DNA from: Halosegnis rubeus
GTDB lineage: Archaea > Halobacteriota > Halobacteria > Halobacteriales > Haloarculaceae
Assembly (NCBI RefSeq): GCF_009184545.1
Contig: NZ_QJOW01000001.1
Coordinates: 62,001 to 126,000, forward strand
Direction: 5' to 3'
DNA length: 64,000 bases
Under the pieces are notes generated by a model. That model had not been told where the DNA came from. It made no database searches and saw nothing but the letters and a program-made list of their open reading frames with translations. The position numbers and the translations under genes are program-made. This document shows, in pieces, positions 44,334 through 48,900 of this stretch (the first letter of the stretch is position 1; every line of letters begins with the position of its first letter).

Positions 44334-44789
44334 ATGGCAACACTCTACGACGCTCCGACCGAGGAGCTCATCGAGGCGACCGCCGCCAAGCTCGAAGACG
44401 AACTCGACCGGCCCGACTGGGCCGAGTTCACCAAGACCGGCGTGGCGAAGGAACTCCCCCCACAGCAGGAGAACTTCTGGGCGCTGCGTGGCGCATCGCT
44501 CCTCCGGAAGGTTGCCGTCGACGGACCCGTCGGCGTCGAGCGACTCTCCACCGCCTACGGCGACAAAAAGCAGGGGTCGACCCGCTACCGCGTCCGCCCG
44601 AACCGCAAGACTGACGGCTCGAAGAACGTCATCCGGACGCTGCTCCAGCAGCTCGACGACGCTGGCTACATCAACACGAACGAGAAGCGCGGCCGCGAGG
44701 TCACCGGCGACGGCAAGCAACTGCTCGATGAGACCGCCACCGAGGTCATCGAAGACCTCGACCGCCCGGAGCTCGAACGCTACGTGTGA
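44334..44789 (+). CDS. rps19e: 30S ribosomal protein S19e
   Basis: This 151-residue small-subunit protein starts MATLYDAPTEELIEATAAKL. The diagnostic core is WALRGASLLRKVAVDGPVGVERLS and TDGSKNVIRTLLQQLDDAGYI. It ends ELERYV with a stop (TGA, 44787-44789) that lies inside the right tip of the TnpB remnant, so the original end may have been altered slightly. In many archaea pdcd5 follows directly, whereas here the remnant separates them. Confidence 0.95.
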   Translation: MATLYDAPTEELIEATAAKLEDELDRPDWAEFTKTGVAKELPPQQENFWALRGASLLRKVAVDGPVGVERLSTAYGDKKQGSTRYRVRPNRKTDGSKNVIRTLLQQLDDAGYINTNEKRGREVTGDGKQLLDETATEVIEDLDRPELERYV

Positions 44790-44836
44790 ACTACCCCTGC
44801 CTACTCGCCGCCGTTGGCGGCTCCTTGAGGCAGGGG
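44786..44836 (-). ncRNA. Right-end hairpin of TnpB element 4 (putative omega RNA 3' part)
   Basis: The 9-bp perfect stem with the same loop edges as other copies is followed by GTTCAC. Relative to CCCCACCCT/AGGGTGGGG, two base pairs have changed on both arms (A-T to T-A and C-G to G-C). A transcript would run on the strand opposite to rps19e. Confidence 0.6.
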
Positions 44837-45711
44837 CTTCCTGTTTCCACGACGCGCTTTGCAGACACAACCGCAGTGTCCACAGGGAGCGCAGTCTCCA
44901 CAGGCGTTAATTCGGAGTGACCCACTCCTAGGTCGGTGAGTCCGCGAGAAAGAACGTTCCACGCCGCGTTTGCGTCCCTGTCAGCCTCAAAACCACAGGC
45001 AGGACAGGAGTGTTCACGTACCCACAGCGGTTTCTCGGTTTTGACGCCACACTGAGCGCACTCTTTGGTAGTGCCGTCAGGGTCAATCTCCACGAAGTGC
45101 GCGCCCTCGCGTTTGCACTTGTATTCGAGTAGGTCGGTGAACGTATTCCACGCCGCTGATGCCGTGTTGCGGCTGTTACGCGGCGATTCTATCATCCCTT
45201 TCACGTTGAGGTCTTCGACCGCGACTAGCTCGTACTCCTGAGCGTAGTAGTTCGAGAGTTTGTGTAGGAAATCACGCCGCTTGCGCTTGATTTGCTGGTG
45301 GCACTCAGCGACATGCTGACGTTGCTTCTCCCAGTTGTTCGACCCATGCTCTTTGCGTGAGAGCTTCCGTTGCTCTCGTTCAAGTCTGTCGCGTTCGTCC
45401 GAGAGATCAAGTGAACCAACTGCTGTGCCGTCAGTGTCGTGGGCATACTTCAGAATCCCCACGTCGATGCCAACCATGTCGTCGGCGTCAACATCTTCAA
45501 GCGACGGTTTGGAAGGTTCATCCTTGTCGTCAACGGCGAAGGAGGCGTACCGCTCTCCAGTCGGCTCTTTCTTGATCGTGACTTCCTTGACAGTCTCCTC
45601 ATCTGGGATGTCTCGGTGGCACTCAATCGGTATATCCGTAAGTTTCGACAGCGAGAGTACAGTCTGACCGTTCTTCTTGTCGAACTCTAACGCGGCGAAA
45701 CCGTTTTTCAT
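44791..45711 (-). pseudogene. tnpB lacking about its first 115 codons
   Basis: Homology with the 41.6-kb TnpB starts at the ATG at 45711 ([20 protein letters not shown]). All catalytic motifs remain: VGIDVGILKYAHD, LVAVEDLNVKGM, CAQCG ... CPACG and DRDANAAWN. The N-terminal nucleic-acid-binding region is gone. The frame continues upstream to 45834 only as antisense of pdcd5. A shortened protein could be made from 45711, but nuclease activity is unlikely. Confidence 0.85.
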
Positions 45712-45732: not shown

Positions 45733-46077
45733 ATGAGTCAGGACGACGACGAGATTGATGAACTTCGACAGGAACGGCTCGAACAGCTGAAAGAGCAAAA
45801 GCAGGGCGAGGGTGCAAGCGAGGCGCGCGAACAACAGCGCCAGCAGGCCGAAGCCCAGAAGAAGGCCGCACTGCGGAAGACGCTCACCGACAGCGCCCGC
45901 CAGCGACTCAACTCGGTGAAGATGTCGAAACCCGAGTTCGCAGAGCAGGTCGAACAGCAGGTCGTCGCGCTGTCGCGGTCCGGTCGCGTGAACGGCAAAA
46001 TCGACGACGAGCAGATGAAGTCGCTGCTCTCGGAGCTCCAGCCCGACAAGCAGGAGTTCAACATCAAACGCCGGTAG
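45733..46077 (+). CDS. PDCD5-family DNA-binding protein
   Basis: This 114-residue helical protein is homologous to eukaryotic programmed cell death 5. It has a charged N-terminal helix ([20 protein letters not shown]) and a core [48 protein letters not shown]. Archaeal members bind DNA non-specifically. The neighbour normally upstream is rps19e, here separated by a TnpB remnant. The PP-loop gene starts at the very next base after its stop. Confidence 0.93.
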
Positions 46078-46671
46078 ATGGACGCCGGCGTGCTGTTCTC
46101 GGGAGGCAAGGACTCGTCGCTCGCCGCGCTCTTACTCGGTGAGTTCTACGACGTGACACTCGTCCACGTCGGCTTCGGCGTCGGCGATGCGGCCACCCAT
46201 GCCGAGGCGACTGCCGACGCGCTCGGATTTCCGTTCGCCGAGCGCGAACTCGACGCCGAGGTCGGCGACGAGGTGGTCGCCCAACTCCGCGAGGACGGCT
46301 TTCAGCGCAACGGCATCCAGATGCTCCACGAACGCGCGCTCGATGCCGTCGCCGGGGACGGGTACGACGCCGTCGCCGACGGCACTCGGCGCGACGACCG
46401 CGTTCCGAGCGTCTCCCGCGCGTGGGCACAGTCGCTGGAAGAACGCCACGACATCGACTACCTCTCGCCGCTCGCCGGCTTCGGTCGCCGCGCCGTCGAC
46501 CGACTTGCCGAGGAGACGCTCGAAGTCGAGGAGGCCCCCGCCGCCGACCTCGAAAAGGGCGATTACGAGGGTGAGCTCCGCGAACTCGTCCGCGAGGCCG
46601 GCGGCGACGAGGCCGTCGAGGAGGTCTTTCCCGAACACATGCAGACTCGCGTCACCGGGCGGCGGGCGTGA
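46078..46671 (+). CDS. PP-loop ATP pyrophosphatase (adenine nucleotide alpha-hydrolase fold)
   Basis: This 197-residue protein carries the PP-loop SGGKDS at 8-13 (VLFSGGKDSSLAALLL), used to adenylate a substrate in tRNA thiolation, diphthamide and 7-deazaguanine enzymes. VADGTRRDDRVPS and YLSPLAGFGRRAVDRL form the rest of the site. The substrate is unknown. It sits directly behind pdcd5 and overlaps the next gene (GTGA), so pdcd5, the PP-loop gene and the Nmad3-like gene appear to be one operon. Confidence 0.85.
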   Translation: MDAGVLFSGGKDSSLAALLLGEFYDVTLVHVGFGVGDAATHAEATADALGFPFAERELDAEVGDEVVAQLREDGFQRNGIQMLHERALDAVAGDGYDAVADGTRRDDRVPSVSRAWAQSLEERHDIDYLSPLAGFGRRAVDRLAEETLEVEEAPAADLEKGDYEGELRELVREAGGDEAVEEVFPEHMQTRVTGRRA

Positions 46672-47393
46672 CGCGCGCCGTCGCAGTCAACGTCGGCGCA
46701 AACACGAACCAACCGGGCATCCGCGCACCCGTCTATGCCGACGGCACGTTCGACTTCCTGCCGATTCCCGAGACAGAACCGACACGCGAGCCCGTCCCGA
46801 CGTACGGCGATCTCGCCTCCGACCTTCGGATGACGATCCCCGACGAGATCCGGGACATGTCCGTCCATCTCGACCCCGAGTTCGCCGGCTACCCCGAGTG
46901 TGACCACCACACCTACGGCGACCCGCACGGCGTGAAGGCGCGCCCGCTCTCTGACCTCGCCGCGGGCGACTGGGCGCTCTTCTACGCCACGCTCGACACC
47001 GCGAGTGACACGGCTGACGACCGCCCCGACTGGCACCCCTCGTCGTGGGGTGCGTATCTCGTCGGCGGGCTTCGACTCGCTCGCGATCCCGTCACCGACT
47101 GGGAGACGATTCCCGAGTCGGAGCGGGCCGTCTTCGCCAACAACGCCCACGTCAAGCGCGCGGAGATGGACGCGGCCGTTCTCCTCGCCGGTGACGAGGC
47201 GTCGGGGCTGTTCGACCGCGCGGTCCCGCTGTCGGCTCCCTCCGGCGGTGTCGACGCGAATGCCCTCGTCACGGAACTATCAGCAGACTCCGGGAAGGGA
47301 CCGTGGTGGCGACGCCCGCTCCGGTACGACGCTGACGCGACCGACCGCCTGCTGTCGGTCATCGACTCCCGCGAGTTCGCCCCGTGGCTGTGA
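46668..47393 (+). CDS. Nmad3-like hypothetical protein
   Basis: This 241-residue protein starts with GTG, overlapping the PP-loop stop. The N-terminus AVNVGANTNQPGIRAPVYADGTFDFLPIPE and the block HLDPEFAGYPECDHHTYGDPHGVKA resemble the nucleotide-modification-associated domain 3 (Nmad3) described in DNA base-modification systems. Then come GDWALFYATLD and WGAYLVGGLRLA. The match is by eye and not certain. Coupling to a PP-loop enzyme makes a nucleotide or tRNA modification role plausible but unproven. Confidence 0.6.
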   Translation: MTRAVAVNVGANTNQPGIRAPVYADGTFDFLPIPETEPTREPVPTYGDLASDLRMTIPDEIRDMSVHLDPEFAGYPECDHHTYGDPHGVKARPLSDLAAGDWALFYATLDTASDTADDRPDWHPSSWGAYLVGGLRLARDPVTDWETIPESERAVFANNAHVKRAEMDAAVLLAGDEASGLFDRAVPLSAPSGGVDANALVTELSADSGKGPWWRRPLRYDADATDRLLSVIDSREFAPWL

Positions 47394-47430: not shown

Positions 47431-47793
47431 ATGGTCGTCGACCTGAACGAAGCCTACGAGCAAATCGACTCCTACTGGGACCCACACGTCGCCGGCGAAC
47501 TGAACGACCAACACGTCAAGCTCGCCCGCATCGAGGGGGCGTTCGACTGGCACCACCACGAGGAGGCCGACGAGCTGTTTTTCGTCCACGAGGGCGAGCT
47601 AACGATTCGGTTCCGCGAACGCGAGGACGTGACGCTCACGCCCGGCCAGTTCCACGTCGTCCCCGCCGGAATCGACCACCAGCCGGTCGCAGACGAAGAG
47701 TGTCGAATCGTGCTGTTCGAGCCGGCAGACACGCTCAACACGGGGAACGTCGAGAGCGAAAAGACCGTTCGAGAAGAGAAGCGGATCGAATAG
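47431..47793 (+). CDS. Cupin-domain protein
   Basis: This 120-residue single-domain cupin has motif 1 at WHHHEEADELFFVHEGELTI (metal ligands His, His, Glu) and motif 2 at GQFHVVPAGIDHQP. The C-terminal tail is acidic. The substrate or binding role is not indicated. The ATG at 47431 is chosen because the upstream frame lies in the preceding gene. It follows the Nmad3-like gene by 37 nt in the same direction. Confidence 0.87.
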   Translation: MVVDLNEAYEQIDSYWDPHVAGELNDQHVKLARIEGAFDWHHHEEADELFFVHEGELTIRFREREDVTLTPGQFHVVPAGIDHQPVADEECRIVLFEPADTLNTGNVESEKTVREEKRIE

Positions 47794-47824
47794 AGAGTCA
47801 CCGCTTGCGAGCGTTCGAGACCAT

Positions 47825-47894
47825 GTGCCGTCCGGGAATTGAACCCGGGCTATTAGCTTGGGAAGCTAATGTCCTACCACTGGACCAACGGCAC
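47825..47894 (-). tRNA. tRNA-Gly (anticodon CCC)
   Basis: The 70-nt cloverleaf folds without mismatch: acceptor GTGCCGT/ACGGCAC, D arm GTCC/GGAC, anticodon stem TTAGC/GCTAA with loop TTCCCAA, and T arm CCGGG/CCCGG with TTCAATT. Anticodon CCC reads GGG. There is no intron and no encoded CCA. The terminal parts are unusual only in that the cloverleaf begins GTG. Confidence 0.97.
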
Positions 47895-48069
47895 TCTCTT
47901 CGGTCACACCGGGACTCGCGAGCGTCGCCCGCTCACCAGCGGCACTCCCGAATCACTCACGAGTACCCGACCGCTCTACTTGAACGTAGCGTTTCCACAG
48001 AACTCCACGCGTGTCCACGAATGGGCCGCCCACAGCACCTATTTGTCGCTCGCTCCCGTATACACTTTC

Positions 48070-48900
48070 ATGTCACAGTCAGTGCCGTTGGTGGAGGGGA
48101 ACGCGATTACGCTCGACCTTTCGGCCGAGGAACTCGACGCACAGCGCGACCACATCACGAGCTTCATCCAAGCGGTCGTCGACGACGCCGGCGCTGACGG
48201 CGCGGTCATCGGCCTGTCGGGGGGCATCGACTCGACGCTCACGGCCACGCTCGCCGTCGAAGCGCTCGGTGCCGACTCCGTCCACGGGCTGGTGATGCCC
48301 TCGGACGTGAACACCGACCAGAACATGAGCGACGCCGAACGCGTCGCCCAGTGGCTCGAAATCGAGTACGACGTGCTCGACATCAACCCCATCGTGGACG
48401 CCTTCTTCGAGGCGTATCCCGAGGGCGTCGACGACCAAATGGCCGCGGGTAACGTCCGCGTTCGCACCCGGGCGGTCCTCAACTACTTCGTCGCCAACGC
48501 CGAGTCGGGCGTCGTCCTCGGCACCGGAAACCGTTCGGAGGCGATGACCGGCTACTTCACGAAGTACGGCGACCAGGCCGTCGACTGCAATCCAATCGGC
48601 AACCTCTACAAGCGACAGGTGCGCCAGCTCGCCTCCCACATGGGCGTCGCCGACGACCTCGTGGAGAAGGCTCCGAGTGCCGAGATGTGGGAGGGCCAGA
48701 CCGACGAGGAGGAGATGGGTCTCGACTACGACACGCTCGACGCGGTTCTCGCGCTCCACGTCGACGGTCCCTTCTCCAAATCGGCGACCACCGAGTCGCT
48801 CGGTGTCCCCGAATCCGCGATAGACCGCGTCGTCGACCTCGTGGAACAGAGCGCGCACAAGCGGTCGATGCCGCCCGCGCCGGCCACGCTCCACCGCTGA
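48070..48900 (+). CDS. nadE: NH3-dependent NAD+ synthetase
   Basis: Last step of NAD+ synthesis: amidation of nicotinate adenine dinucleotide with ammonia and ATP. The 276-residue protein has the PP-loop SGGIDS at 50-55, GTGNRSEAMTGYFTKYGD and DCNPIGNLYKRQVRQLA, with no glutaminase domain. The ATG at 48070 gives the normal N-terminus. It is divergent from tRNA-Gly. Confidence 0.95.
   Translation: MSQSVPLVEGNAITLDLSAEELDAQRDHITSFIQAVVDDAGADGAVIGLSGGIDSTLTATLAVEALGADSVHGLVMPSDVNTDQNMSDAERVAQWLEIEYDVLDINPIVDAFFEAYPEGVDDQMAAGNVRVRTRAVLNYFVANAESGVVLGTGNRSEAMTGYFTKYGDQAVDCNPIGNLYKRQVRQLASHMGVADDLVEKAPSAEMWEGQTDEEEMGLDYDTLDAVLALHVDGPFSKSATTESLGVPESAIDRVVDLVEQSAHKRSMPPAPATLHR

Follow-up and report, generated by a model that had tools for sequence, protein, structure and literature searches.

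PP-loop enzymes modify tRNA. Within this fold, QueC carries a zinc-binding set of cysteines, and MnmA and the TtuA-type thiolases carry catalytic or cluster-binding cysteines. The closest described relative of the PP-loop protein considered here, a member of the Pfam family DUF7411, is MJ0690 of M. jannaschii (PDB entry 3k32), which is likewise uncharacterised as far as our literature search found. According to the available excerpt of one study of ribosomal gene clusters (PMC10833476), M. jannaschii has a gene string S19e-COG2118-COG2117-L39e, and COG2117 is missing in the other archaea examined there; an excerpt of an older survey (PMC1852104) places the COG2117 ATPase (PAB0172 of Pyrococcus abyssi) among the proteins specific to Euryarchaeota except Thermoplasmata. 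Judging from its place beside COG2118 in M. jannaschii, COG2117 would correspond to DUF7411. The second protein considered here belongs to the Nmad3 family, and its predicted fold is closest to those of the EVE and related domains, which read modified bases in DNA or RNA (PMC7641849, in whose accessible text the term "Nmad" does not occur). The genes for both proteins lie next to each other at positions 45733 to 47393 of a 64,000-nucleotide stretch of the Halosegnis rubeus genome (contig NZ_QJOW01000001.1, positions 62,001 to 126,000; here called the window). The best explanation, to which we assign a probability of roughly 0.7, is that they are two unrelated genes, for a PP-loop enzyme and for a separate EVE-like Nmad3 protein, that became neighbors when a single genus of haloarchaea underwent a recent rearrangement.

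On the basis of open reading frames and sequence, three genes (pdcd5, DUF7411, and Nmad3) span this interval head to tail on the + strand. Together with the ribosomal protein gene that precedes them, they are as follows.

44334..44789, + strand: rps19e (ribosomal protein S19e gene), first gene of the S19e-PDCD5-DUF7411 string (Pfam Ribosomal_S19e, E 2.4e-42)
45733..46077, + strand: pdcd5 homolog (dsDNA_bind, PRK04239; Pfam E 6.8e-29, NCBIfam E 5.8e-38)
46078..46671, + strand: DUF7411 PP-loop enzyme (MJ0690 family, PRK14561; Pfam PF24167 E 3.8e-80, PDB 3k32 E 6e-39)
46668..47393, + strand: Nmad3-family protein with a predicted EVE/YTH/ASCH-like fold and a GTG start (Pfam PF18754 E 1.2e-46; AF2, Foldseek, and VIA-align)

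A first-pass annotation of this DNA had described the junctions correctly: pdcd5 ends in TAG, and the ATG of the PP-loop gene begins at the very next base (46078), while the stop codon of DUF7411 (TGA, 46669-46671) and the GTG of Nmad3 (from 46668) have GTGA in common, a 4-base overlap. Its family calls (PP-loop, Nmad3-like, and pdcd5 upstream) were right as well. The Pfam search that it had suggested for Nmad3 gave a strong match of 159.8 bits against a cut-off of 27, covering positions 1 to 245 of the 247-position profile; NCBIfam gave no match for this protein. DUF7411 was matched over its full length (268.5 bits in Pfam against a cut-off of 28.7; 251.4 bits for NCBIfam PRK14561 against 207). 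Both are known, uncharacterised families, and neither is new as a family. Compared with one congener (G047), the dN/dS ratio was ~0.15 for Nmad3 (0.086/0.591) and ~0.10 for DUF7411 (0.077/0.799), values well below 1, so that both look like real, constrained genes under purifying selection.

The conservation of the pair was assessed in a sample of 57 genomes from the window's family and a sample of 196 genomes from its phylum, both drawn from larger groups, and in a neighborhood survey of 80 named haloarchaeal Nmad3 loci (the best 80 of 244), in which the closest named relatives of the window Nmad3 are Halobacteriales metagenome-assembled genomes and Halorarius. Neighbor clusters were built from open reading frames called by length and similarity, independent of annotation, and the resulting counts are lower bounds because contig ends cut some loci. 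To score the presence of DUF7411 in the family, 47 matches of at least 195 bits (46 genomes) were kept, and matches of 33 bits or less were dropped and taken as other PP-loop families; at E 0.001 the tally is 57/57, inflated by weak matches to other PP-loop proteins. For adjacency, every Nmad3 and PDCD5 match was kept, and distances run between match ends, not gene ends.

The first-pass annotation had treated the PP-loop and Nmad3 genes as coupled, a claim that the survey does not support; the annotation itself had named a lack of conservation as grounds for refutation, and such a lack is what was found. Carriers in the family sample numbered 47/57 for Nmad3, 46/57 for DUF7411, and 56/57 for PDCD5. 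Both genes were present in 40 genomes, DUF7411 alone in 6, Nmad3 alone in 7 (including G010 and G031, which are only 60% and 57% complete), and neither in 4, which gives a Fisher p of 0.088 for co-occurrence. DUF7411 adjoins Nmad3 in only 3 of the 40 genomes with both, namely the window genome and two more of its genus (G047 and G035), where the junction is identical, 4-base overlap included; in a fourth sampled genome of this genus the two genes are 58 kb apart. Among the named loci, DUF7411 is adjacent to Nmad3 in 1/80 and lies inside the fetched flanks in 8/80, and a comparison of the two profiles found no relationship. A conserved two-gene unit is not supported, adjacency being confined to one genus among the sampled relatives. 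Thus, we consider it highly improbable that a PP-loop enzyme that activates a substrate and an Nmad3 protein that helps to modify DNA or tRNA form a nucleotide-modification unit, even though the overlap is kept in three genomes of one genus, the Nmad families were named from base-modification systems, and tRNA modification is a general property of PP-loop enzymes. Each gene also occurs without the other, and what is tempting to call a two-gene "modification system" is a genus-level neighborhood.

The rearrangement favored here would have put Nmad3 behind rps19e-pdcd5-DUF7411 within the history of the genus. In two Halorarius loci (L080 and L081), ~6.5 kb separate S19e-PDCD5-DUF7411 from Nmad3-NadE, which follows on the same strand, and the loss of the intervening stretch would yield the window order; this is the simplest history, although unproved. 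The overlap itself is not special to DUF7411, since Nmad3 shares 4-base overlaps with varied other upstream genes elsewhere (in L019, in L021 and L029, and in L050). In the window genus, it may couple the translation of DUF7411 and Nmad3 without a conserved partnership between them. The two widespread archaeal families are thereby put on a testable footing, each worth separate study.

The conserved partner of DUF7411 is pdcd5, which adjoins it on the same strand in 46/46 family genomes with a strong DUF7411 match, and in many relatives pdcd5 is preceded by a member of an S19e cluster (14 members). The three genes form an old string, rps19e-pdcd5-DUF7411, with DUF7411 in third place. The window PP-loop protein is an ortholog of MJ0690, with which it has in common the family, the full-length fold, 40-42% identity, the SGGKDS motif, the ADGTRRDDRVP block, and the place after pdcd5; the strings differ in that the one in M. 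jannaschii continues to L39e (PMC10833476, available excerpt), whereas that of the window runs into Nmad3. Literature searches for DUF7411, MJ0690, PRK14561, PF24167, and PF18754 found nothing, and no paper was found on PDCD5 with archaea and S19e. We dropped arCOG00044 as a candidate designation for the DUF7411 family, as PMC4390880, in the text accessible to us, groups it with TilS/MesJ; the names COG2117, arCOG00044, PDCD5, and S19 do not occur in PMC2948915.

The AF2 model of DUF7411 (pLDDT 90.8) matched 3k32 with a Z score of 25.1 (rmsd 1.8; 192 residues aligned). The next folds were Cap9, MnmA, YcfA, and QueC, all of which have the PP-loop fold in common with DUF7411 and, at Z 12.0 to 12.6, count as tied, followed by the nitrile synthetase ArtA at 10.8. 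The Pfam QueC score of the window protein (13.8 bits) is below the cut-off of 22. Invariant residues include the PP-loop positions S8, G10, K11, D12, and S13 and an ADG.RRDDR.P block. The protein contains no cysteine at all, at most 3 of the 14 aligned proteins have a cysteine at any one position, and the MJ0690 residues that were compared lack it too. DUF7411 thus differs from QueC and MnmA in having no conserved cysteine, and hence neither a QueC-type zinc site nor an MnmA-type catalytic cysteine, as well as in its conserved blocks. A persulfide or iron-sulfur thiolase is unlikely for this reason, and the thiolase candidate was rejected; the findings agree better with a nitrogen nucleophile that attacks in an ATP-driven reaction. 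DUF7411 would thus probably act as a ligase, spending ATP to adenylate a carbonyl oxygen of its substrate, plausibly a tRNA base, which a nitrogen nucleophile would then attack.

The nature of the substrate is less clear from the fold. LarE, argininosuccinate synthase, YcfA, and QueC are close in fold and act on small molecules, so that a cofactor or nucleotide precursor, instead of tRNA, is a serious if somewhat less probable alternative. The tRNA enzyme MnmA is equally close, however, and the conserved S19e-pdcd5 string, with L39e in M. jannaschii, points to translation. These translation-linked neighbors lead us to favor tRNA as the substrate of DUF7411, and the part of the first-pass annotation that foresaw tRNA modification is still reasonable for the PP-loop gene alone.

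One specific role can be proposed within this framework. An archaeal modification of the wobble uridine, cnm5U, is made by enzymes that were unknown according to a 2020 review (PMC7694415, in the accessible text), and DUF7411, with its tie to S19e-PDCD5, is a candidate for it; according to the same text, cnm5U occurs in haloarchaea, M. maripaludis, and M. jannaschii and is absent from other archaea. Excerpts of further papers report cnm5U and cnm5s2U also from T. kodakarensis (PMC11323500) and propose, for one tRNA of M. maripaludis, cn5U instead of cnm5U (PMC7668247), and our literature search, which covered papers in part, found none that assigns a cnm5U enzyme. DUF7411 could be the missing nitrile-forming enzyme, converting a carboxymethyl group to an amide and then to a nitrile in a QueC-like manner with ATP and ammonia, after Elp3 has acted on wobble U34. 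The PP-loop fold near QueC and ArtA, the lack of a conserved cysteine, and the ribosomal-gene context are consistent with this role. DUF7411 was detected in M. jannaschii, H. volcanii, and M. acetivorans and not in S. acidocaldarius or ten other controls (3/14 at E 1e-20), an agreement with the few cnm5U-reporting species that counts as weak evidence. The accessible part of PMC7668247 also covers three archaea, one of them S. acidocaldarius, and names cnm5U as one of their modifications at position 34, with the species unspecified in the text; if S. acidocaldarius, which is without DUF7411, has that cnm5U, this counts against the role. Furthermore, DUF7411 is missing at E 1e-20 from 80 of the 196 phylum genomes, yet Elp3 is present in 191/196. 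When 18 of these 80 genomes were rechecked at E 0.001, only short matches of at most 33.7 bits appeared, above the cut-off in 3 genomes. On balance, we regard the cnm5U assignment as rather unlikely.

With its presence in 191/196 phylum genomes, Elp3 was rejected as uninformative for co-distribution with DUF7411. No sampled genome of the haloarchaeal genera g5, g7, and g12 in the family or g23 and g32 in the order has DUF7411. PDCD5 is kept in g5, g7, and g12, and Elp3 was seen in g7, g23, and g32; these genera are natural test cases for the function of DUF7411.

Turning to Nmad3, a structural model built from 58 aligned sequences (the window protein and 57 from the 80 loci) had a mean pLDDT of 93.2 and a pTM of 0.91. 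The best Foldseek match in the PDB was 6p0f, the N-terminal domain of Thermococcus gammatolerans McrB (E 7.3e-4, probability 0.99), followed by 6p0g, PH1033, and MJECL36. The 50 entries listed by VIA-align were YTH, ASCH, THYN1, and VcaM4I structures and five further kinds whose titles name no family and which we take to be EVE-type (PH1033, MJECL36, PSPTO5229, Q88CH6, and a Leishmania protein). The hhalign comparison pairs a GD..FY block of Nmad3 with a GD..IY block of EVE. As the best fold matches are EVE/YTH/ASCH and archaeal McrB N-terminal domains, Nmad3 is likelier to be a reader than a modifier, although the sequence evidence is weak. The haloarchaeal Nmad3 is a single-domain protein of predicted EVE/YTH/ASCH-like (PUA-type) fold, and its most likely role is to bind a modified base in RNA or DNA. 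The alternative of an ASCH-like hydrolase with a modified nucleoside as its substrate has a precedent in bacterial YqfB, an N4-acetylcytidine amidohydrolase, and draws on Zymomonas mobilis ASCH chains that tie with EVE at Z 7.0 and on a set of invariant polar residues in the 58-sequence alignment (N8, R19, E35, H67, D69, K90, H161, R164, D207, R215, and R216). The top Foldseek scores belong, however, to reader domains (McrB N-domain and EVE), and we consider a hydrolase unlikely.

Several results weigh against our explanation, in regard to both the reader-like fold and the separateness of the two genes. The best VIA-align score for Nmad3 among the matches listed (Z 7.8, rmsd 4.4, 138 residues aligned) is under 8, the limit below which the tool warns that a match can reflect no more than a shared arrangement. 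In Foldseek, only 1 of 103 matches reached E ≤0.001, the leading rows had a TM-score by query length of 0.37 at best, and from E ~0.1 flavin monooxygenases and PheRS, whose folds are unrelated, appeared. The Pfam EVE model (PF01878) did not match Nmad3 at E up to 1, and hhalign against 11 archaeal EVE proteins gave probabilities of just 8.4% and 4.7%. The overlap with DUF7411 is kept in 3/4 sampled genomes of the window genus, and a lineage-specific link is possible. Only 27 Nmad3-DUF7411 pairs lie on one contig, and contig breaks could conceal a few adjacencies. Lastly, our literature search found no biochemistry for DUF7411 or Nmad3.

Nmad3 also differs from EVE-type domains in length (241 versus ~145 amino acids), with ~8-14% identity in the alignments. 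A PDB sequence search found nothing credible for it, and a BFVD search found nothing at E ≤0.001. Given the weak Z score, TM-scores, and sequence support, we call Nmad3 EVE-like in fold and not a member of the EVE family.

In the family sample, Nmad3 occurs in 47/57 genomes and 21/22 genera, with a single match in 45 of the 47 genomes; a literature search by name found no relevant paper. Its most frequent neighbors in the 80 loci are a hexapeptide-repeat protein (62), a DUF7577 zinc ribbon (43), NadE (35), and KaiC (25), and a cupin of the same cluster as the one in the window lies nearby in 7/80. Families were assigned for 20 neighbor-cluster representatives, among which no base-modification gene was seen; clusters c10, c12, c17, c19, c22, c24, c27-c30, c36, and c46 were counted without a family assignment. 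The suggestion in the first-pass annotation that the pair could modify tRNA or DNA does not extend well to Nmad3, which does not resemble a modifying enzyme here, in that its model is nearest to reader domains and the identified neighbors include no modification genes. Haloarchaeal Nmad3 would thus be common, EVE-like, and possibly a reader of modified bases, with neighbors of its own such as the hexapeptide-repeat protein, the zinc ribbon, and nadE.

A different setting was found elsewhere in the phylum. In three genomes outside the window's order (G233:C58:1003-2221, G095:C104:3886-5048, and G125:C83:3109-4356, the last being locus L055), Nmad3, matched by the same Pfam PF18754 as the window gene, directly follows Nmad2, and this tandem looks like a genuine Nmad partnership. 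Nmad2 was detected in 6/196 phylum genomes, three of which (G067, G126, and G205) have no Nmad3 match beside it. The same model found Nmad2 in 0/57 genomes of the window's family, which sets the haloarchaeal Nmad3 outside the Nmad2-Nmad3 setting. These tandems, distant Nmad3 matches on 4 plasmid records (one of them haloarchaeal, with 95% coverage), and a match to a PHROG of unknown function at E 6.1e-10 are what would connect haloarchaeal Nmad3 with a system for DNA hypermodification or defense on mobile elements. Against this stand the lack of Nmad2 and the wide presence of Nmad3 in the family, and we judge such a system to be very unlikely. In addition, tblastn of Nmad3 against phage records and PADLOC searches of Nmad3 and DUF7411 gave no match, and none of 29 pattern matches to Nmad3 in viral contigs was confirmed. 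Nmad3 as a mobile defense gene was rejected on the ground of its presence in 47/57 family genomes. The accessible parts of PMC11846954 and PMC13092281 describe, for phages and defense, Nmad5 and NMAD domains of unspecified type and contain nothing on archaeal Nmad3.

Haloarchaeal Nmad3 proteins fall into two subfamilies, as seen when those of L037-L045, L053, and L054 were compared with the window protein. In the first, the N-terminus carries a GANTN..G motif and the C-terminus reads SDSGKGPWWRR; the second has GVGAD..N and a different C-terminus. A divergent branch lies directly 3' of riboflavin genes (RibBA, RibH, and the lumazine-binding RibE) in three genomes of one genus (L037, L039, and L040). 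In genome G212 (L056:5872-7533, - strand), the Nmad3 match covers residues 324-511 of a 554-amino-acid open frame whose first 320 residues are without a Pfam match, which may reflect a fusion or an overlong frame.

The remaining features around the locus are as follows.

44786..45686 (approximate, by eye), - strand: between rps19e and pdcd5, inserted remnant of a TnpB-type element (IS200/IS605 family; OrfB_IS605 and Cas12f1-like TNB matches)
47431..47793, + strand: gene for a small cupin protein, 3' of Nmad3 (Pfam Cupin_2 E 9.6e-12)
47824..47894, - strand: tRNA-Gly(CCC), between the cupin gene and nadE (ARAGORN; Rfam RF00005, 71.9 bits)
47869..48900, + strand: nadE (NAD synthase), longest open reading frame (from the list of frames; clusters with L027:11242-12096, NAD_synthase E 6.4e-75)

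Because the longest nadE frame overlaps tRNA-Gly(CCC), the true start of nadE must lie further in. The TnpB-type element is absent in the congeners L032 and L033, where the gap between S19e and pdcd5 is 42 and 40 bp and the site is uninterrupted. Its insertion point lies at the S19e stop codon, and the N-terminus of TnpB is apparently missing, as the frame begins in host sequence.

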